44,874 nt of DNA from Actinomycetes bacterium (lineage in GTDB: Bacteria > Actinomycetota > Acidimicrobiia > Acidimicrobiales > Palsa-688), in NCBI GenBank assembly GCA_021850325.1, contig JAJZMF010000037.1:1-44874 (forward strand), read 5' to 3'. A program made the translations under genes and the position numbers. Positions 1 to 8,453 of this stretch are shown here, piece after piece (within the stretch, counting starts at the first letter, position 1; the number at the start of each line of letters is the position of its first letter). A model generated the notes under the pieces. The model saw only the letters and a program-made list of their open reading frames with translations. It was not told the origin of the DNA and did no database searches.

Positions 1-289
1 TGTTGGTGGGGGCCGTCTGCAGGGTGACCTTGATGCTCGGGTTGGCCTTCTCGAAGTCGGTGATGAGCACCTTGCGCAGGTCGGGGCCGCTGGTGGAGAT
101 GGGGCTCGCCCACCACACGATGGTGGTGGTGGCGGCGTGGCCCGCACGCGGTGCGGCCGAGGCACTGGGCCCGGCAGCGACGACACCCATGCCGAGCGCC
201 GCTCCAAGGGAGACCAGTGCGCTGAGGCGTGCCTTCGCTGAGGGGGTACGGGGACGCCCGGCTGGCGTCCGAAGACGGGTTGGCTTCAT
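1..289 (-). CDS. Sugar ABC transporter substrate-binding protein, N-terminal part (runs off the left edge)
   Basis: Only the first 96 codons are in the window. They begin at ATG 289 with a GAAAGGA-like ribosome site about 12 bases upstream. The translation opens with a basic stretch (MKPTRLRTPAGRPR), continues with a hydrophobic signal-peptide core ending near SASAAPRAG, and then gives TTTIVWWASPIS followed by DLRKVLITDFEKANPSIKV. This is the usual first strand and helix of family 1 extracellular solute-binding proteins, which bind sugars outside the membrane and deliver them to ABC permeases. The ATG overlaps the stop of the LacI-type gene by four bases (ATGA), so the regulator and binding protein are probably translationally coupled. 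The partner permeases should lie left of the window. The sugar cannot be named from this fragment, though the xyl genes across the divergent promoter suggest a pentose or xylo-oligosaccharide. Confidence 0.85.
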   Translation of the reverse strand, partial: MKPTRLRTPAGRPRTPSAKARLSALVSLGAALGMGVVAAGPSASAAPRAGHAATTTIVWWASPISTSGPDLRKVLITDFEKANPSIKVTLQTAPTN

Positions 290-1434
290 TTGCTTCTGCT
301 TTCCTTTCTCTGTCGTGCCCCGCTGGCCGGACGGGGAGCGGAGTGCGTCCCGACGCCGGGGGGCAGTGTGCTGGGGGAGGGATGTGCCGGTCGCCCTTCG
401 GCCGTCCCGTGCTTGTCGGGCCGGCGTACCGGGGCGGCGGTGGTCTGACGGACCACCAGGTGGGTCTGGGCGCTCAGGCGCACCGCAGGTGCGCCCTCGG
501 GGCCCATGACCGAGCTCACCAGCTGCTCGGCTATCAGCCGGCCCTGGCCCGGGACGTCCTGAGCCACGGTTGTGAGCTCGAAGTAGGAGGCCATCGGGTG
601 GTCGTCGAAGCCCACCACCGAGACGTCCTCGGGTACTCTCAGGCCCACCCGGTCCAGTGCCTTGAGGGCACCGAAGGCCATCTCGTCCGACTCGGCGAAT
701 ATGGCCGTGGGCAGGCTGCGCCGGCTCAGCAGCTTGACGGTGGCCGAGTAGCCCCCTTCGACCGTGAACGGGCCGTGGGCCTCGAGCTCCGGGCGCACCG
801 TGAGGCCGGCCGATACGAGGGCCTCGCGGTAACCACGGCGCCGGTGGAGCGGCACGGTGAAGTGCATCGGTTCGTTGGGGTCGCCCGAGATGAGGGCGAT
901 GTCCGAGTGGCCCAGGTTGACGAGGTGCTGTACCGCGGTGCGGGAGCTGTCGAGGTCGTCGATGCACACACTGGAGAAGCCTTCGACTTCGGCCCCCACC
1001 ATGTACACCGGCACATCGAGCGAGCGTAGAGCCGCTACCTCCGGATCGGTGAGCGCCAGGGTGACCAGCACCACCCCGTCGACCCGCTTGCGCAGCAGGC
1101 CGGAGGAGAAGTACTGCTGGCGCATCTCAGTGTCCCCGACGTGGTAGAGGAGCAGGTCGAGGCCCGCTTCCCGGACCACCTTCTCCACTCCCCCCAGGAG
1201 CTCGGCAAAGAACCACCGGGTGATGTACGGCATCACCACGGCAATGGTGCCTGTGCGGCCGGTGGCCAGCCGGTAGGCGGCGGGGGACACGCTGTAGCCC
1301 AGGTGCTCGGCCGCCTCCTTTATGCGCGAGACGGTGCCCGCCGAGAGGCCGCCGATCCCCCTGAGCGAACGCGAGACGGTGGACGGTGAGACGCCGGCCA
1401 GCTGCGCGACATCTTTGATCGTCGTCTTGGCCAC
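286..1434 (-). CDS. LacI-family transcriptional regulator (xyl-side)
   Basis: This 382-residue protein has the LacI layout. An N-terminal helix-turn-helix (TTIKDVAQLAGVSPSTVSRS, residues 3-22) and hinge helix near residue 55 precede a periplasmic-binding-protein-like sensor domain (residues 60-335) with GVVLVTLA, ALISGDP and VSVVGFDDHP segments. The start is GTG 1434, directly before the HTH and behind a GGAAGGGGG ribosome site. An in-frame reading 62 codons further upstream is rejected because it has no homologous sequence. After the usual end (HLVVRQTT) there is a polar, proline-rich tail of about 50 residues that looks non-conserved. The gene is first in a unit with the binding-protein gene and is transcribed away from xylA. 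It probably represses both directions and itself, because LacI-type palindromes lie in the shared gap. The effector is unknown; xylose or a xylo-oligosaccharide is inferred. Confidence 0.9.
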   Translation of the reverse strand: MAKTTIKDVAQLAGVSPSTVSRSLRGIGGLSAGTVSRIKEAAEHLGYSVSPAAYRLATGRTGTIAVVMPYITRWFFAELLGGVEKVVREAGLDLLLYHVGDTEMRQQYFSSGLLRKRVDGVVLVTLALTDPEVAALRSLDVPVYMVGAEVEGFSSVCIDDLDSSRTAVQHLVNLGHSDIALISGDPNEPMHFTVPLHRRRGYREALVSAGLTVRPELEAHGPFTVEGGYSATVKLLSRRSLPTAIFAESDEMAFGALKALDRVGLRVPEDVSVVGFDDHPMASYFELTTVAQDVPGQGRLIAEQLVSSVMGPEGAPAVRLSAQTHLVVRQTTAAPVRRPDKHGTAEGRPAHPSPSTLPPGVGTHSAPRPASGARQRKESRSK

Positions 1435-1564
1435 CGGCCGTCCCCCTTCCCGTGCTCGCCGCCTGGCTCCCGGGAGCGTGCTCCCGGTTGGCCAGGCTCT
1501 CAGCGTGACCTGCGGTACCGAGTGCCGGGTGGCGCCCCGGGGGGGCCGGACCTGGCAGCGCCAG

Positions 1565-1593
1565 ATGTTAGTGCTGTGACCCCGGTCATGCAA
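1565..1593 (-). promoter_or_regulatory. Predicted promoter of the lacI-type gene / binding-protein operon
   Basis: On the minus strand TTGCAT (1593-1588) and TAACAT (1570-1565) are separated by exactly 17 bases, a near-consensus housekeeping promoter pointing to the regulator gene. The -35 box shares bases with the palindrome at 1589-1602, so a bound repressor would block RNA polymerase. This fits autoregulation. Confidence 0.6.
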
Positions 1594-1602
1594 GCGGTTG
1601 CG
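1589..1602. promoter_or_regulatory. LacI-family operator O1
   Basis: TGCAAGCGGTTGCG matches the LacI-family core AANCGNTT centred on a CpG, with TGC/GCG arms. It overlaps the -35 box of the leftward promoter. The palindrome is seen in the sequence; which regulator binds is inferred. Confidence 0.65.
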
Positions 1603-1657
1603 CGTGAGCGACCGCGCCATGGCCTCCAGGACCGGAGTTCCCTACGGGTTACACCAG

Positions 1658-1671
1658 TGCAACCGGTTGCC
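1658..1671. promoter_or_regulatory. LacI-family operator O2
   Basis: TGCAACCGGTTGCC contains a perfect 12-bp palindrome, GCAACCGGTTGC (1659-1670). Its centre is 69 bp from that of O1 and it has the same arms. The pair could allow cooperative or looped binding by the LacI protein encoded next door. Confidence 0.65.
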
Positions 1672-1759
1672 GAGCTGGGCCCCGCCGAGCGGCCCACCTT
1701 ACTGACGGGCAGCCGTCGGGGGAGCGGCCGGGGCGTGGGGCCTGTCCTCCTCGAGGCTG

Positions 1760-1788
1760 TTGACCAGTCCCGTGCACGGCCGTATAGT
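1760..1788 (+). promoter_or_regulatory. Predicted xylA operon promoter
   Basis: TTGACC (1760-1765), a 17-base spacer and TATAGT (1783-1788) make a strong housekeeping promoter by eye. Transcription would start near 1795, inside the palindrome at 1787-1801, leaving an untranslated leader of about 85 bases before xylA. Confidence 0.7.
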
Positions 1789-1801
1789 TCAATCGATTAA
1801 C
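1787..1801. promoter_or_regulatory. Operator-like palindrome at the xylA transcription start
   Basis: GTTCAATCGATTAAC is an imperfect palindrome centred on the CG at 1794-1795, unusually A+T rich for this DNA. It begins inside the -10 box and spans the expected +1. Its arms differ from the TGCAA sites O1 and O2, so it may serve a different protein. The ROK regulator encoded as third gene of this operon is the obvious candidate, but this is inference. Confidence 0.5.
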
Positions 1802-1880
1802 AAATGCGGCCCGACCGAACGGCAGCCGCCGCGCCCATCCCGGCAGCCCGCTGCGGGCTGCCTGTCACGAAAGGCCCGCG

Positions 1881-3068
1881 ATGATTGTTGCCCCCAAGCG
1901 CGAAGACCACTTCTCGTTCGGCCTGTGGACCGTCGGCTGGCAGGCCAGGGACCCTTTCGGGGACCCCACCCGGCCCTGGCTGGACCCGGTCGAGTCGGTC
2001 CACAGGCTCTCGGAGCTGGGGGCGTGGGGGGTCACCTTCCACGACGACGACCTCATCCCCTTCGGTGCCGACGAGGCCGAGAGGGAGAAGGACATCCTCC
2101 GCTTCAAGGAGGCCCTGGCCGAGACGGGCATGGTCGTCCCCATGATGACGACCAACCTGTTCACCCACCCGGTGTTCAAGGACGGCGCCTTCACCAGCAA
2201 CGACCGCTCGGTGCGCCGCTTCGCGTTGCGCAAGGTGGTCCGCAACCTCGACCTGGCCGCCGAGCTGGGGGCCGCGACGTACGTGTTCTGGGGAGGCCGT
2301 GAGGGTTCGGAGAGCGATGCCGCCAAGGACGTCCGCTCGGCCCTCGAGCGTTACCGGGAGGCCATTGACACGCTGGCCGAGTACGTGACCGACCGTGGCT
2401 ACGGGATCCGTTTCGCCATAGAGCCCAAGCCCAACGAGCCCCGGGGGGACATCCTGCTGCCCACGGTCGGCTCGGCGCTGGCTTTCATCTCGACGCTGGA
2501 GCACTCGGGGATGGTGGGCGTCAACCCCGAGGTCGGCCACGAACAGATGGCCAACATGAACTTCGTCCATTCGATATCCCAGGCCCTCTGGCAGGGCAAG
2601 CTCTTCCACATCGACCTGAACGGGCAGCGGGGCCCCAAGTTCGACCAGGACCTGGTGTTCGGCCACGGGGACCTGCTCAACGCCTTCTTCCTCGTGGACC
2701 TGTTGGAGAACGGCGGCCCCGGTGGGGCGCCCGCCTACGACGGCCCCCGCCACTTCGACTACAAGCCCCTGCGCACCGACGGGGCGGACGGGGTGTGGGA
2801 GTCGGCACGCGCCAACATGGTGACCTACCTCCTGCTCAAGGAGAGGGCGGCTGCGTTCCGGGCCGACCCCGAGGTGCAGGAGGCGCTGGCCGCCAGCAGG
2901 GTGGCGGAGCTCGCCCAGCCCACCCTGGCCCCCGGTGAGGGCTACAAGGGCCTGCTGGCCGACCGGAGCTCCTACGAGGACTTCGACGTCGAGGCGGTGG
3001 CCAGCCAGTCGTACGGCTTTGTGCGCCTGAGCCAGTTGGCGCTCGAGCACGCCGTCGGGGCCCGCTGA
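1881..3068 (+). CDS. xylA: Xylose isomerase
   Basis: Cytoplasmic enzyme converting D-xylose to D-xylulose, and glucose to fructose as a side reaction. The 395-residue chain is of the actinobacterial type. Every active-site residue falls at the same number as in the well-studied Streptomyces enzyme: Trp16, His54 and Asp57 (in VTFHDDD), Phe94, Trp137, Glu181 and Lys183 ([10 protein letters not shown]), Glu217 and His220 (NPEVGHEQM), Asp245, Asp255, Asp257 and Asp287. Both divalent-metal sites and the proton-shuttle pair are therefore intact. The ATG lies six bases after GAAAGG. It is first in an operon with xylulokinase (9-base gap) and the ROK regulator, under the promoter at 1760-1788. Confidence 0.98.
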
Positions 3069-3077
3069 GGGACGGGG

Positions 3078-4523
3078 ATGGTACTCGTCGCGGGGGTCGA
3101 TTCGTCGACCCAGGCCTGCAAGGTCGTGGTGCGCGACGCCGCCACCGGTGCCCTGGTGCGCCAGGGCCGGGCGGCGCACCCTGAGGGGACCGAGGTCGAC
3201 CCCGCCCACTGGTGGTCGGCGCTCCGTACCGCCCTGGCGGACGCCGGTGGCCTGGAGGACGTGGGGGCTGTGGCCGTCGGGGCGCAGCAGCACGGCATGG
3301 TCTGCCTGGACGAGGCCGGGCAGGTGGTGCGCCCGGCACTGCTCTGGAACGACACCCGGTCGGCGGCTGCCGCGGCCGAGCTGGTGGCCGAGCTCGGTGA
3401 GGGGGAAGTGGGTGCCCGGGCGTGGGCCGAGGCCACGGGCTCGGTCCCGGTCGCCTCGTTCACCGTGACCAAGCTGCGCTGGTTGGCCGAGCACGAGCCC
3501 GGCCCGGCCAAGGCCACCGCCGCGGTGGCACTGCCCCACGACTGGCTCACCTGGGGGCTCCTGGGGCACGGGCCGGGAGCCACCGGGCCCGGTCCGGCAG
3601 GCGCCCTGGACCGCCTGGTCACGGACCGGGGCGACGCCAGCGGCACCGGCTACTGGTCCCCGGCGACAGGGCGGTACCGCATGGACCTCTTCGAGCGGGG
3701 CCTGGGCCACACGGCGGTGGTGCCCAGGGTCCTCGGCCCGGCCGAGGTGGCGGGGACGATGCCCGGCGGGGCGCTCGTCGGCCCGGGCACGGGCGACAAC
3801 GCGGCAGCCGCTCTGGGGGTGGGCGCCGGGCCGGGGGACGTCGTGGTGTCCGTGGGCACGTCGGGGACGGCCTTCGCCGTAGCCGAGCGGCCGACCGCCG
3901 ACCCTACGGGGACCGTGGCGGGCTTTGCCGACGCCACCGGTCACTTCCTCCCCCTGGTGTGCACGCTCAATGCGGCCCGGGTGCTCGACGCTGCGTGCAC
4001 CATCTTGCGGGTCGACCACACCGAGCTGTCCCGGCTGGCCATGCAGGCCCCGCCGGGGGCGGGAGGCATGGTGCTCGTCCCCTACCTCGAAGGCGAGCGG
4101 ACGCCGAACCGGCCCGATGCCACGGGAGCGGTCCACGGGCTGAGGCTCTCCAACGCCACTGCCGCCCACCTGGCCCGGGCGGCCGTGGAGGGGCTGCTGT
4201 GCGGGCTGGCCGACGGTATCGATGCCCTGGTCGAGCTCGGCGTAAGGGTGGAGCGCGTGATCCTGGTGGGCGGCGGCAGCCGTTCGCAGGCCCTTCGGGC
4301 GCTGGCCCCGGCCGTCCTCGGGCACCCGGTGGTGGTCCCGCCCGAGAGCGAGTACGTGGCCGACGGTGCCGCCCGTCAGGCGGCGTGGGTACTGGCCGGT
4401 GGCGACGCGCCGCCCCGATGGGAGGCAGCGAGCGGGCCCACGTACGAGGCCGAGCCCACCCCCGGGGTGCGTGAACGCTACAGCGAGGTCCGTGAGCTCA
4501 CTGCCCGCAGGACCGAAGCCTGA
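3078..4523 (+). CDS. xylB: Xylulokinase (FGGY family)
   Basis: Phosphorylates D-xylulose with ATP to xylulose 5-phosphate, which enters the pentose phosphate pathway. The 481-residue protein shows the FGGY two-domain actin-like fold. Visible features are [10 protein letters not shown] (residues 6-15), [10 protein letters not shown] (66-75, substrate pocket of xylulokinases), LLWNDTRS (88-95), the catalytic aspartate in [10 protein letters not shown] (Asp240), the phosphate loop SVGTSGTAF (258-266) and the C-terminal adenosine motif ILVGGGSRS. The length is typical. It starts nine bases after xylA behind a GGGACGGGG ribosome site. Together with xylA it completes the classical xylose isomerase route. 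Confidence 0.96.
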
Positions 4524-4539
4524 GGGCGGCGAGGGGCCG

Positions 4540-5895
4540 GTGCCTGCCGGGGCCCGGCCCCGCCCCCCCTCGCTGCGCCTGAGCGGTCCCTACCGCCACG
4601 GCGGTCCCCATGCCGCCGCGCACGGGGCCGCCCCACCCGCCCGTCAGGCCTCACTGAGGCGGCACAACCTGGCCCTGGTGCTGCGGGAGGTGGCTGCCGG
4701 CGGGCCGCTCAGCCGGGCGGAGCTGTCCAGGCGCACCGGGCTGACCAAGGCCAGCGTCTCCACCATGGTCGACTCGCTCACGTCCTGCGGCGTGCTCGAG
4801 GAGCTCTCCTCCGAGGGTTCCCCCCGCCCCGGGCCGGGCCGGCCGGGCTCCCCCGTCGGCTTCGGGCCGACCAGCCCGGTCGCCATCGGGCTCGAGGTGG
4901 CGGTGGGCTACACGTCCGCGTGCGTGGTCGACCTGGCCGGCCGTTGCAGCCGCCAAAGCCTGCTGGTGCTGGACAACCGGGCACTGGGGCCGGCCGCCGG
5001 CATGCAGCGTGCCGCCCGGCTCGTGGCCGAGCTGGCGCGTTCGGTCAGGGACCAGGGCCGTCGTCTGCTCGGGTGCGGGCTGGCCGTGCCCGGTGTGGTC
5101 GGGCCCTCCGGGGAGCTGTGGTGGGTGCCCAACATGGCGACCTGGGCCGGCCTGCACCCGGCCCAGGTGCTGGACGATCTGCTCCAAGAGCACATGGGGG
5201 GCGCGGTCCTCACCGGCCCGGGCGGGCTGGTGGCCGACGCCGGGACGCCGGGGGACGGCCTGAGGGCTCTTGCAGTGGGCAATGAGGCCAACCTGGGCGC
5301 CTTGGCCGAGCTGTGGTACGGAGGGCACCGGCACCTGGAAGACTTCCTGCGTGTCTCGGGTGAGGTGGGCGTGGGGGCGGGCATCGTCTCCGGTGGCCGT
5401 CTGCTCACGGGGGCGCGCGGCGCGGCGGGGGAGCTCGGTCACGTGAACGTGGAGCCCGAGGGCCTGCCCTGTGCCTGTGGTGCCCGGGGGTGCCTCGAGC
5501 AGTACGCCGGTCAGGAGGCGATCGTGAGGCAGGCGGGCGCGCCGGGGTACGGACAGGTCCTGGACATGGCGGCACGGGGCGAACCGTCCGCTCTCTTGGC
5601 CCTCGAGGAGGCGGGGCGGGCGCTGGGCCTCGCCGTGGCGGCGACCCTCAACGTGGTCGACGTCCCTACCGTCGTCCTGGGCGGGATCTACGCCGAGCTG
5701 GCGCCGTACATCCAGGCCGCCCTCGCCCGCCAGCTCGCAGAACGGGTGGTAGGAGGCCGCTTCGGCCCGGTGCGCGTCGTAGCGGCCGGTGTGGGCCGCG
5801 AGGCAGCCATGAGGGGCGCCGGCGGTGTGGTCGCCCACCAGGTGGTTGCCGACCCGGCGGCCCATCTGCCCGAACTGCTGGACCGCTCAGCCTGA
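4540..5895 (+). CDS. ROK-family transcriptional regulator (XylR-type)
   Basis: ROK proteins of this length are sugar-responsive DNA-binding regulators. From GTG 4540 the 451-residue protein has a low-complexity lead of about 35 residues and a winged helix (about residues 40-88, with SRAELSRRTGLTKASVSTMV). A ROK ATPase-like sugar domain follows, with CGLAVPGVV, AVGNEANLGALAE, the glycine-rich EVGVGAGIVSGG, and the ROK zinc site GELGH plus CACGARGCLEQ (Cys-x-Cys-x4-Cys). The sugar-kinase aspartate position reads NEAN, fitting a regulator rather than a kinase. It sits 16 bases after xylB in the same operon, so it probably controls xyl expression. The start is uncertain: GTG 4540 has GAGGGG only three bases upstream, but no later start precedes the helix-turn-helix. 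Confidence 0.88.
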   Translation: MPAGARPRPPSLRLSGPYRHGGPHAAAHGAAPPARQASLRRHNLALVLREVAAGGPLSRAELSRRTGLTKASVSTMVDSLTSCGVLEELSSEGSPRPGPGRPGSPVGFGPTSPVAIGLEVAVGYTSACVVDLAGRCSRQSLLVLDNRALGPAAGMQRAARLVAELARSVRDQGRRLLGCGLAVPGVVGPSGELWWVPNMATWAGLHPAQVLDDLLQEHMGGAVLTGPGGLVADAGTPGDGLRALAVGNEANLGALAELWYGGHRHLEDFLRVSGEVGVGAGIVSGGRLLTGARGAAGELGHVNVEPEGLPCACGARGCLEQYAGQEAIVRQAGAPGYGQVLDMAARGEPSALLALEEAGRALGLAVAATLNVVDVPTVVLGGIYAELAPYIQAALARQLAERVVGGRFGPVRVVAAGVGREAAMRGAGGVVAHQVVADPAAHLPELLDRSA

Positions 5896-6004
5896 GCGGC
5901 CCGTCCGGGGCCGAGGGGGCAGGATGGTGGCACCAGGCCGGTGGCGCCGATGGCGGCGCCGGCAGAGGCCCGGGCGGTCCCCCGCCCCGAAGAGGAGGTC
6001 GGAG

Positions 6005-6922
6005 ATGGTCGAGGTGAGGGCCCTGGACGAGCTGCGTGGCCGATTGGGCCCGGTCGGGGTGTGGTTGGCGGTGCTGCGGCCAGCTTCGGCTCATGACGAG
6101 CGGCTGGCAGCGCGCCGGGTGGAGGAGCTCGGCTACGGCTCGCTGTGGGCCGGGGAGACGATCGGGGGCAAAGAGGCATTCGCCCACCAGTCGGTGCTGC
6201 TGGCCGCCACCGAGCACCTGGTGACCGGTACCGGGATCGCCAACGTGTGGGCCCGTCACCCGGCCACCATGGCCGGTGGTGCCGCATCCCTGGCCGACGC
6301 CTACCCCGGGCGCTTCGTGCTCGGGATCGGGGTGAGCCATGCGCCGATCGTCGGCCGCAGCGGCCAGGAGTACTCCAGGCCCTTGGACAAGATGCGCAGC
6401 TACCTGGACGGTATGGACCAGGCGGCAGAGGGCGCCCCCCGGGCGGAGGTCCCTGCCCCGGTGGTGCTCGCCGCCCTGGGCCCGCGCATGCTCGAGCTGG
6501 CCCGGGACAGAGCCGACGGCGCTCACCCTTACTTCGTCCCGAGCGCGCACACCCCCCTGGCCCGGCAGGCACTGGGCCCGGGGAAGCTGCTCGTGCCCGA
6601 ACAGGCGGTGGTGGTGAGCGCTGACGCCTCGGAGGCCCGTCGCCTGGCCCGCCAGCACATGCACATGTACCTGCAGCTCCCCAACTACGTCAACAACCTG
6701 AGACGCCTGGGCTACGGCGACGACGATCTCGGCGGTGGTGGCAGCGACCGCCTGGTGGACGCTGTGGTGGCCTGGGGGGCGCCCGGGGTTGTTGCCGGCC
6801 GGGTGCGTGAGCACCTGGACGGCGGGGCCGACCACGTCCTGTTGCAGCCGCTGGGGGACCTGGGCGACGCTCTGCGCCAGTTGGAGGAGCTGGCCCCGGT
6901 GGTGCTCTCCGGAGGGGCGTGA
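6005..6922 (+). CDS. LLM-class F420-dependent oxidoreductase, MSMEG_4141-like
   Basis: The 305-residue protein is a luciferase-like-monooxygenase TIM barrel. It opens with GPVGVWLAVL, followed by VEELGYGSLWAGET, the strand TGTGIANVWARHP and FVLGIGVSHAPIV. These are the hallmarks of the actinobacterial subfamily named after MSMEG_4141, predicted to use coenzyme F420. The substrate is unknown. ATG 6005 follows a perfect AGGAGG (5993-5998) with a six-base spacer. It lies 109 bases downstream of the ROK gene and directly abuts the Smr gene, so it could be read through from the xyl promoter or have its own. No sugar-specific feature is visible, and its link to xylose metabolism is only positional. 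Cofactor assignment is by family. Confidence 0.85.
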   Translation: MVEVRALDELRGRLGPVGVWLAVLRPASAHDERLAARRVEELGYGSLWAGETIGGKEAFAHQSVLLAATEHLVTGTGIANVWARHPATMAGGAASLADAYPGRFVLGIGVSHAPIVGRSGQEYSRPLDKMRSYLDGMDQAAEGAPRAEVPAPVVLAALGPRMLELARDRADGAHPYFVPSAHTPLARQALGPGKLLVPEQAVVVSADASEARRLARQHMHMYLQLPNYVNNLRRLGYGDDDLGGGGSDRLVDAVVAWGAPGVVAGRVREHLDGGADHVLLQPLGDLGDALRQLEELAPVVLSGGA

Positions 6923-7183
6923 TTGGCGGCCCGGCTCAAGCTGGACCTGCACGACATCTACAACCGGGGCGAGGAGATCGACCGGGCGCTCCGGAAGGTC
7001 ATGGACGAGGCCGTCCGGGTGAAGGCGTCAACAGTGGAGATCATCCCCGGCAAGGGCTCGGGGCAGCTGAAGAAGAGGGTGCTGCGCTTCCTGGAGCAGA
7101 AGGAGGTGAAGGCGCTCTACCACCGGGTGGAAAAGGACTCGGACAACTGGGGGCGGCTCTGGGTGCACTTCCGCTGGAAGTAG
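6923..7183 (+). CDS. Stand-alone Smr-domain protein
   Basis: This 86-residue protein is little more than one Smr (small MutS-related) domain. It contains KLDLHDIYNRGEEIDRAL (the DLH motif), then VEIIPGKGSGQLKKRVLRFL (the GKGSG loop) and a C-terminal strand. Smr domains in MutS2 and similar proteins have nicking or RNA-cleaving endonuclease activity. Both the DLH and the GKGSG elements are present, so catalysis is plausible. The start is TTG, the three bases right after the TGA of the oxidoreductase, with GGAGGGG (6911-6917) in that gene's end as ribosome site. Translational coupling is therefore expected. What it acts on, and why it follows a sugar operon, are not known. Confidence 0.85.
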   Translation: MAARLKLDLHDIYNRGEEIDRALRKVMDEAVRVKASTVEIIPGKGSGQLKKRVLRFLEQKEVKALYHRVEKDSDNWGRLWVHFRWK

Positions 7184-7184
7184 C

Positions 7185-7248
7185 CCCCGGCGCTCAGGAC
7201 CGGGGGCGCTCAGGGCCGGGGTCGCTCAGGGCCGGGGTCGCTCGGGTT
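7185..7248. repeat. 16-bp tandem repeat, four copies
   Basis: Four consecutive 16-base units of the type CGGGGTCGCTCAGGGC occupy 7185-7200, 7201-7216, 7217-7232 and 7233-7248. The first and last are more diverged. The array begins just after the Smr stop and runs across the stop codon of the convergent LacI-type gene (7226-7228), so it sits exactly where two transcripts meet. Confidence 0.8.
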
Positions 7249-8281
7249 CGGTCGAGCCCCGCACCACGAGGGTGCCCTCGTGGTGGCGGGTACCGCCGCC
7301 CACCCGGGCGCCGTCGATCATGGCGAAGAGGTCCTTGACCGCAGTGGTGCCCAGGTGCTCGAGCTCCATGTCCAGGGTGGTGATGGCGGGGTCGGTCTCC
7401 TCGGCGAACACCCTCCAGTTGTCGTAGCCGGTGATGGCCACGTCGTCGGGGACCTTGCGGCCGGTGGCCACGACGGTCTCCAGTACGGTCGCCGCGAGCT
7501 GGTCGGAACCACAGGCGATGGCGTCGACATCGGGCACTGCGGAGAGGATCTCCAGGGTCGCCTGACGGGCCCAGCGTTGTGACCACGGCCCGTAGGCCAC
7601 TTCACCGGCCAGCCTGAGCCCGTGCTCCTCGAGGGTGCGGGTGATCCCCAGCACCCGCTGCTGTACGGCTGTGGCGTGCTCGGGCCCGGTGATGTGGGCG
7701 ACCCGTCCCCGGCCGAGGCCGACCAGGTGCCCGACCACGCTCGCGGCGCCGGCGAAGTCGTCGATGTTGTGCACCACGTCGCGGCTGTTGGTGCTGGGGC
7801 CGTAGACGTAGACGCACGGGATCTTCACCGTGGCGGTTATGGACGGTGACCCGCTCTGGTTGTCGCCCACGATGAGCAGGCCGTCCACATGGCGTTGCCT
7901 GAGCCCCATGGCGAGGTCGGCCAGGCGGTCTACGGCGCCCCGGGCATCGGCGATCATCGCCGAGAACTGCCTCTCCTCGGCTACCGACTGCGCCCCGACG
8001 ACGATGGGCATGGCGAAGCGGTGGACGCCCGGGTCCCGCAGGAGGACCCCGATTATGCTGCCGCGGCCGCTGACGAGGCTCTTGGCCACCAGGTTGGGGG
8101 AGTAGGAGAGCTTCTTGGCAGCGCGCAGCACCCGCTTGCGCGTCGTCTCGGAGATGCGGTCCCGCCCGTTCATGGCCTTGGAGGCTGTGGTGAGAGAAAC
8201 GCCGGCCAGGCGCGCCACCTCGGTCAGGGTGGGGGGCCGGTCCTTCTGCACCCAGCAAGCATAGGCGTCCGTCTGCAGCAC
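7226..8281 (-). CDS. LacI-family transcriptional regulator (glycosidase-side)
   Basis: A 351-residue LacI-type protein: HTH TLTEVARLAGVSLTTASKAM near residues 18-37, hinge (LSYSPNLVAKSL) and sensor domain with IIGVLLRDPG, DGLLIVGDN, HITGPEHA, DAIACGSDQLA and VAITGYDNW. It is transcribed divergently from the GH127-GH31-ABC operon, so local control of that operon is likely. Start choice is open: GTG 8281 leaves 17 residues before the HTH and has GAGG/GGGGG upstream, while GTG 8251 lies closer to the HTH but has no visible ribosome site. The last codons fall in the 16-bp tandem repeat, giving a TEPERPRP tail. The effector is unknown and is presumably the imported oligosaccharide or a product of it. 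Confidence 0.88.
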   Translation of the reverse strand: MLQTDAYACWVQKDRPPTLTEVARLAGVSLTTASKAMNGRDRISETTRKRVLRAAKKLSYSPNLVAKSLVSGRGSIIGVLLRDPGVHRFAMPIVVGAQSVAEERQFSAMIADARGAVDRLADLAMGLRQRHVDGLLIVGDNQSGSPSITATVKIPCVYVYGPSTNSRDVVHNIDDFAGAASVVGHLVGLGRGRVAHITGPEHATAVQQRVLGITRTLEEHGLRLAGEVAYGPWSQRWARQATLEILSAVPDVDAIACGSDQLAATVLETVVATGRKVPDDVAITGYDNWRVFAEETDPAITTLDMELEHLGTTAVKDLFAMIDGARVGGGTRHHEGTLVVRGSTEPERPRP

Positions 8282-8312
8282 CCCCGGACCTCGCCCCGGC
8301 TCCTGGGTGCTG

Positions 8313-8326
8313 GGAAAGCGTTACCG
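8313..8326. promoter_or_regulatory. LacI-type half-conserved operator upstream of GH127 operon
   Basis: GGAAAGCGTTACCG carries the AANCG core of LacI-family sites but is only weakly palindromic. It lies between the regulator gene and the glycosidase promoter and resembles, in inverted form, the site at 8402-8415. It is a candidate auxiliary or autoregulatory site. Confidence 0.35.
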
Positions 8327-8381
8327 CAGCTCCGGGTCCCCTATGGCTCGTACTGTCATCAGACATTGTGAAAACTAGGGC

Positions 8382-8411
8382 TTGACGTGGCGGGTACAGG
8401 TGGGGTAGCGT
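8382..8411 (+). promoter_or_regulatory. Predicted promoter of the GH127-GH31-ABC operon
   Basis: TTGACG (8382-8387), an 18-base spacer and TAGCGT (8406-8411) form a plausible housekeeping promoter ending about 42 bases before the GH127 start codon. The -10 region is covered by an operator-like sequence, as at xylA. Confidence 0.55.
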
Positions 8412-8415
8412 TTCC
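8402..8415. promoter_or_regulatory. Operator-like site over the -10 box of the glycosidase operon
   Basis: GGGGTAGCGTTTCC is an imperfect palindrome centred on CG 8409-8410 (GGTAGC against GGAAAC) with the LacI-type NCGNTT half. It overlaps the -10 box, a normal position for repression. Binding by the divergently encoded LacI protein is inferred. Confidence 0.45.
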
Positions 8416-8453
8416 TCAAACAGGGGGCCGAGGGGGCAAGGGAGGGAGGCCGC

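Follow-up and report, generated by a model that had tools for sequence, protein, structure and literature searches.

Two back-to-back operons with probably separate regulators meet in a lacI–xylA intergenic gap of an actinobacterium

The window, by which we mean the whole analysed stretch of 44,874 nucleotides from an actinobacterium of the order Acidimicrobiales, opens with two divergent sets of genes and, between them, an intergenic gap that holds several predicted regulatory sites (table 1). To the left of the gap, the product of lacI1 combines a LacI helix-turn-helix domain (PF00356) with a sugar-binding domain (PF13377) in a Pfam search, and the stop of its gene shares an ATGA (289-286) with the start of the next leftward gene. 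The 96 amino acids of this solute-binding protein that the contig retains are 80% identical to a protein in the same place in the congeneric genome G002 (SBP_bac_1), and the G002 protein is in turn 66-86% identical to proteins encoded behind lacI in four other loci. To the right, the ROK gene is the third gene, following xylAB, with which it is probably co-transcribed; its orthologues also adjoin xyl genes. A preliminary description of this DNA had placed regulators of the LacI and ROK families on the two sides of the gap, and Pfam supports both assignments. A second LacI gene lies nearby, at 7226-8281. In the gap that separates it from a GH127 gene (8282-8453), two AACGCT-type palindromes can be seen by eye at 8313-8325 and 8404-8415; these are perhaps the second LacI's own operators.

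Table 1. Genes, predicted operators and predicted promoters at the left end of the window
Feature	Coordinates	Strand	Basis or remark
Solute-binding protein gene of an ABC transporter, 5' part	1-289	minus	Contig end cuts the gene
lacI1, LacI-family regulator	1434-286	minus	GTG start at 1434; open reading frame and Pfam
Leftward promoter (lacI1 and the next gene)	1594-1566	minus	TTGCAT (1594-1589)-N17-TAACAT (1571-1566)
O1, LacI-type operator (predicted), TGCAAGCGGTTGCG	1589-1602	minus	Minus-strand right half contains the leftward -35 box
O2, second LacI-type operator (predicted), TGCAACCGGTTGCC	1658-1671	minus	69 bp from O1, start to start
Rightward promoter of xylAB-ROK	1760-1788	plus	TTGACC (1760-1765)-N17-TATAGT (1783-1788)
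O3, predicted ROK operator, TATAGTTCAATCGATTAACAAAT	1783-1805	plus	Overlaps the -10 box and the expected start
Third palindrome, TTCAATCGATTAAC	1788-1801	plus	Directly after the rightward -10 box
xylA, xylose isomerase	1881-3068	plus	ATG at 1881; TIGR02631, 682 bits, cut-off 447
xylB, xylulokinase	3078-4523	plus	TIGR01312, 385.8 bits, cut-off 380.25
ROK-family regulator, XylR-like	4540-5895	plus	PF00480 ROK and PF12802 MarR_2 winged HTH (N-terminal); exact start uncertain

Direct reading confirmed the coordinates of the three palindromes and of both promoters that had been described in the gap. O1 and O2 are even palindromes with a central CG, situated upstream of the regulator gene lacI1. When at most one mismatch is allowed, the pattern TGCAANCGNTTGC has four matches in the window (the two sites, each on both strands) compared with 0.43 expected, a number that none of 100 shuffles attained. 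Over the whole genome, single O1-like sites are not in excess (21+17, versus 21+20 for a reversed control pattern); hence it is the pairing of the sites and their conservation, and not the single site, that carry weight. A wider O1-type regulon in the same genome found no support: there was no excess over the control, and seven of the nine places inspected fell inside open reading frames predicted by script. One of these, in G000:C40, falls at the start (5' end) of a frame that appears LacI-like by eye.

The rightward promoter is the sole sigma-70-like match in positions 1-7000 of the window, where 0.1 would be expected, and similar promoters are found upstream of xylA in relatives. The leftward promoter, having three of six and four of six consensus bases in its two boxes, lies under the threshold of the same scan. 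Within the xylA leader, a perfect 10-base inverted repeat (1842-1862) is located just upstream of the ribosome-binding site. An RNA element in this leader was discarded as a candidate, there being no Rfam match in 1400-1950 and an unremarkable fold (z -1.45, with 15 of 200 shuffles equally stable).

The preliminary description had proposed that the gap be compared in relatives, with a lack of conservation of the palindromes speaking against it; in the comparison that we ran, no such lack was found. Nine full-length LacI1 loci with at least 55% identity were available: the window itself, G002 (L061), G004 (L062), G018, two in G022 (L063 and L064), G770 (L065), L066 and a paralogue in the same genome as the window (G000:C36). 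A fragment without the gene start, L089 (68% over 74 residues), stands outside this set. The near-identical pair of palindromes first noticed in the window recurs in all nine, each having two AANCGNTT palindromes upstream of lacI at spacings of 69, 68, 68, 68, 68, 67, 66, 98 and 98 bp. The promoter with its -35 box inside O1, read in the window as TTGCAT-N17-TAACAT, is likewise matched in every locus by a TTG in the right half of O1 followed, at exactly 17 nt, by TAnnnT; when spacers of 8-44 nt were considered in the nine loci, the only additional spacing was 36 nt, in one sequence. Comparison thus provides strong support for the predicted leftward promoter. The paralogue (L237, G000:C36:42613-43734) is 55% identical to LacI1 and has its operators 98 bp apart with the same promoter geometry.

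Among the nine loci, xylA lies across the gap in the window and in G002 only. A tblastn search found no xylA in L062-L066, and the xylA matches of G018 and of the paralogue's genome are on other contigs. The neighbours across the gap elsewhere, as called by script, include DUF4032, an ABC ATPase/sensor kinase, an SDR enzyme, DUF4097 and an alpha-amylase-family enzyme, and the genes upstream of the other lacI loci are divergent in some cases and tandem in others. Because the block formed by O1, O2 and the leftward promoter is maintained where xyl genes do not adjoin it, we read it as the control region of the lacI operon, and the earlier assignment of O1 and O2 to a xyl control region is not supported.

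More distant LacI proteins set the limits of this arrangement. Five homologues at 41-44% identity comprise two with a wider and different pair and three with no sites; in L232 (G001) and L238 (G000:C15), both at 44%, two AANCGNTT sites are 186 and 203 bp apart, and their flanking arms differ, being mostly of a TGGAA type. No AANCGNTT site was present in the scanned stretches of L067-L074 (48-51%), that of L072 being only 116 bp long, and L075 and L076 (44%) have one site each; in the series up to L091, the operator scan covered L061-L076. Judging from these sequences, the 66-69 or 98 bp arrangement is a feature of the close LacI1 group. Paired sites as such are more widespread and therefore not special to that group, as the 44% homologues with their 186 and 203 bp pairs reveal.

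If a LacI tetramer joined O1 and O2 in a DNA loop, as happens in the lac operon, the pairing of the sites in 9/9 loci would be readily understood, as would the narrow spacing class of 66-69 bp (seven loci) with its second class of 98 bp (two loci), and so would the lack of a TAnnnT at 17 nt from O2, whichever strand is read, in all nine. At 10.5 bp per turn, however, these spacings amount to about 6.5 or about 9.3 turns and not to whole turns. In the LacI of E. coli, moreover, the tetramerisation helix is in the C-terminal tail, and in LacI1 the tail is poorly conserved: residues 336-382 of the other eight loci have a mean identity to the window protein of 0.17, versus 0.70 for residues 1-335, and by eye the part after residue 335 is rich in proline, glycine and arginine and has no leucine repeat. 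We therefore treat looping as a tentative idea, with the balance leaning against it.

We think it unlikely that LacI1 coordinates both operons, with O2 or an O1-O2 complex also lowering the transcription of xylA and thereby linking it to the uptake of another sugar. The two members of the genus in which this xylA is present (the window and G002) both retain the juxtaposition of the two operons, and O2 lies on the xylA side of the gap. Nevertheless, O2 is equally conserved at loci without an adjoining xyl gene, and its distance from O3 is not maintained, being 130 bp in the window and approximately 193 bp in G002. The best solved matches of the solute-binding protein of L062, which are maltose- and trehalose-binding proteins, also count against such a coordination.

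The site on the xylA side has a quite different distribution. We examined 41 xylA upstream regions of at most 300 bp from the order and sought the ROK gene in all 41 genomes; two partial xylA copies (G018 C17 and G022 C126), neither of which matches the O3 pattern, were excluded. The O3 element, AGTT-N9-AAC-N-AA, has the consensus TTAAGTTCA-N5-TGAACNAAT with a variable middle, its best dyad axis is at the centre and it overlaps the -10 box. Where a genome carries the orthologous ROK gene, its xylA promoter has the element in 11/11 cases, compared with 0/30 of the others. Leave-one-out scores range from 21.9 to 35.5 in the 11 and do not exceed 5.9 in the 30, and for each of the 11 sites the score was reached by none of 300 shuffles. 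Shuffles of the AT-rich G137 and G167 go as high as 21.1 and 20.7, just below the weakest true site (21.9, in G216). The set of ROK-carrying genomes was drawn from protein searches but fixed when the first sites were already known. Nor are the 11 cases independent, as eight come from one family (f31) and two from the genus of the window, and the sites of G293 and G238 are identical, leaving 10 different sequences.

Within family f31 the ROK gene and O3 occur together in eight genomes, and G137 and G167 are without both; in f53, G280 has both and G314 neither. G137 (L103) and G167 (L104) are small genomes that are nested in the ROK-carrying xylA clade. Ten of the 11 O3 genomes have xylA and ROK demonstrably linked on the same strand; in the exception, G293, linkage is not demonstrated because the ROK gene is on another contig, and in G238 the two genes are also on two contigs but the ROK contig carries the end of xylA. 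The proximity of a ROK gene alone does not predict O3: in G022 (L223, G022:C89) a ROK gene of 35% identity converges with xylA, in G370 (f31, contig C92) a ROK relative of 35% identity lies on the strand opposite to xylA, about 4.9 kb upstream, and neither has O3. These two relatives are likely to represent a different regulator or a different site.

The pattern AAGTTCA-N7-AAC-N-AA is matched in full once per genome, at xylA, in nine genomes; the O3 of the window has one mismatch to it and is the only match in its genome at that tolerance, and G280 has no match with at most one mismatch. Beyond the order, 14 further ROK loci of the phylum were scored with a matrix trained on the order only. 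A strong O3 was detected in two, G595 (31.3) and G453 (36.3), where it is the best match in 12-13 kb and occupies the gap that separates xylA from a ROK gene in divergent orientation; the remaining 12 scored at most 12.7, several of these stretches being without a close xylA. Because G595 and G453 keep the site with the ROK gene placed differently, we conclude that O3 follows the ROK protein and not the gene order. In agreement with this association, as it emerges from the comparison, the recognition helix has K/R-A-T/S in 11 of 12 ROK proteins with O3 versus 0 of 13 without it, a correspondence noted by eye and after the fact.

The preliminary description had distinguished the third palindrome from the other two, and it is indeed of a different type, but its AATCGATT middle is present in the window only and is missing from the other 10 promoters. 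This has a bearing on whether O3 could be a third LacI-family operator through which LacI1 or the second LacI (7226-8281) represses xylA, a reading that we judge to be very improbable. In the window that middle does give O3 a AANCGNTT core, and two LacI genes are nearby. Yet the core is absent from O3 in all 10 other promoters, where the outer arms are kept; the congener G002 reads AACCGATG, and in the others the middle varies freely. In those xyl clusters of further O3 genomes that were inspected, with upstream stretches as short as 0.8 kb, the only LacI-like gene apart from LacI1 in G002 is in G385 (36% identical, approximately 5.9 kb upstream of xylA). The second LacI is an unlikely regulator of O3 because the palindromes seen by eye in its own gap differ. 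With its middle not conserved, O3 was rejected as a LacI site. That the palindromes are simply chance matches in a GC-rich gap can be dismissed: the genome has no surplus of single O1-like sites over the reversed control pattern, but 9/9 loci preserve both the pairing and its placement with respect to the promoter, and O3 separates 11/11 from 0/30.

The two halves of the gap also appear to differ in their past. In a tree of xylA, the window and G002 fall inside an otherwise f31 clade (support 100/97, and 100/96 one step in) and not with the xylA sequences found elsewhere in their own family; this is a single gene tree of 43 of the 47 sequences, without G238 (partial), G396, G094 and G186. Because of this position, and because the other close LacI1 homologues are without adjoining xyl genes, the sequences suggest that the xylAB-ROK cassette was acquired and came to adjoin an already existing lacI-transporter module. 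We give little credence to the further step that the cassette, acquired from another family, has been cross-wired to the lacI operon. If cross-wiring were true, LacI at O2 or in an O1-O2 complex would also adjust xylA, so that another sugar would gate the use of xylose, and the LacI in such a complex would be one that lacks the classical tetramerisation helix. Short of that, TTAAGTTCA-N5-TGAACNAAT may represent an undescribed class of operator for actinobacterial ROK xylose regulators.

We regard it as likely, on the evidence of the sequences compared, that the gap contains two separately regulated operons back to back, with LacI1 repressing leftward and the ROK protein rightward. By binding O1 over the -35 box, LacI1 would repress its own promoter and with it the transporter gene or genes that follow; O2, the conserved second operator, would help in this repression, and a sugar ligand would release LacI1. 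The ROK protein, for its part, would bind O3, covering the -10 box and the start, and repress the xylAB-ROK operon until released by xylose or a related sugar. Comparison shows the sites and how they are conserved, the geometry of the leftward promoter and the link between O3 and the ROK gene; the binding of these proteins to DNA, their ligands and a sign of repression over activation are taken from the two families, and we infer co-transcription. Simple occlusion leaves O2 without explanation. The dual control that had been proposed thus describes the gap as a whole but not xylA itself: on comparison, what appeared to be one such gap falls into two modules, each with a history of its own. The scheme yields a clean pair of predictions, namely that LacI1 binds O1 and O2 only and the ROK protein O3 only.

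Similar combinations of regulators are known elsewhere. In Anaerocellum (Caldicellulosiruptor) bescii, XynR (LacI) and XylR (ROK) bind separate types of operator at xylan and xylose genes, with AANCGNTT-type sites for the LacI protein and an AGTT...AACT inverted repeat for the ROK protein, as in the gap described here; unlike here, those sites are scattered over several loci (PMC12285236). The A. bescii ROK site at xylA, TAGTTTGTTTAATAAACAAACTA, extends over 21 bp from AGTT to AACT (PMC12285236), whereas in O3 these boxes span 17 bp and the inner bases are others; as measured against the A. bescii sites only, O3 and the Firmicute XylR operator are not the same sequence. In Bacillus and the Clostridia, xylAB is likewise under a ROK-type XylR, with an inverted repeat at the xyl promoters, and ROK XylR motifs within the Firmicutes are described as differing from group to group (PMC2873477); the present case has another motif and a ROK gene in third place in its operon.

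Among the Actinobacteria, the XylR of Streptomyces is reported to be a repressor of the xyl operon that is relieved by xylose, and hence resembles our case as an actinobacterial XylR over xyl genes, but there xylA and xylB-xylR diverge from a common intergenic region; neither "ROK" nor "operator" occurs in the main text of that paper (PMC6149001). Rok7B7 of Streptomyces coelicolor, a ROK regulator, affects xylose use, and it is stated that gel shifts detected no specific binding of it to DNA (PMC4856308). A search of the open-licence literature encountered no O3-type ROK motif in print; the motif may be new for the Actinobacteria, and for a group of their ROK xylose regulators O3 offers a concrete candidate operator.

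The leftward half has its closest parallel in a survey of the LacI family, in which autoregulation was found for 72% of the regulators and more than one site before approximately 20% of operons (PMC4052901). The local operons of that survey share with O1 and O2 the even palindromes, the central CG, autoregulation (predicted here) and multiple sites, but its intersite distances peak at 13, 22 and 32 bp, versus 66-69 and 98 bp here (PMC4052901). In comparison with these systems, the gap is a clear new example assembled from familiar parts, a switch of an ordinary kind and not of a new type.
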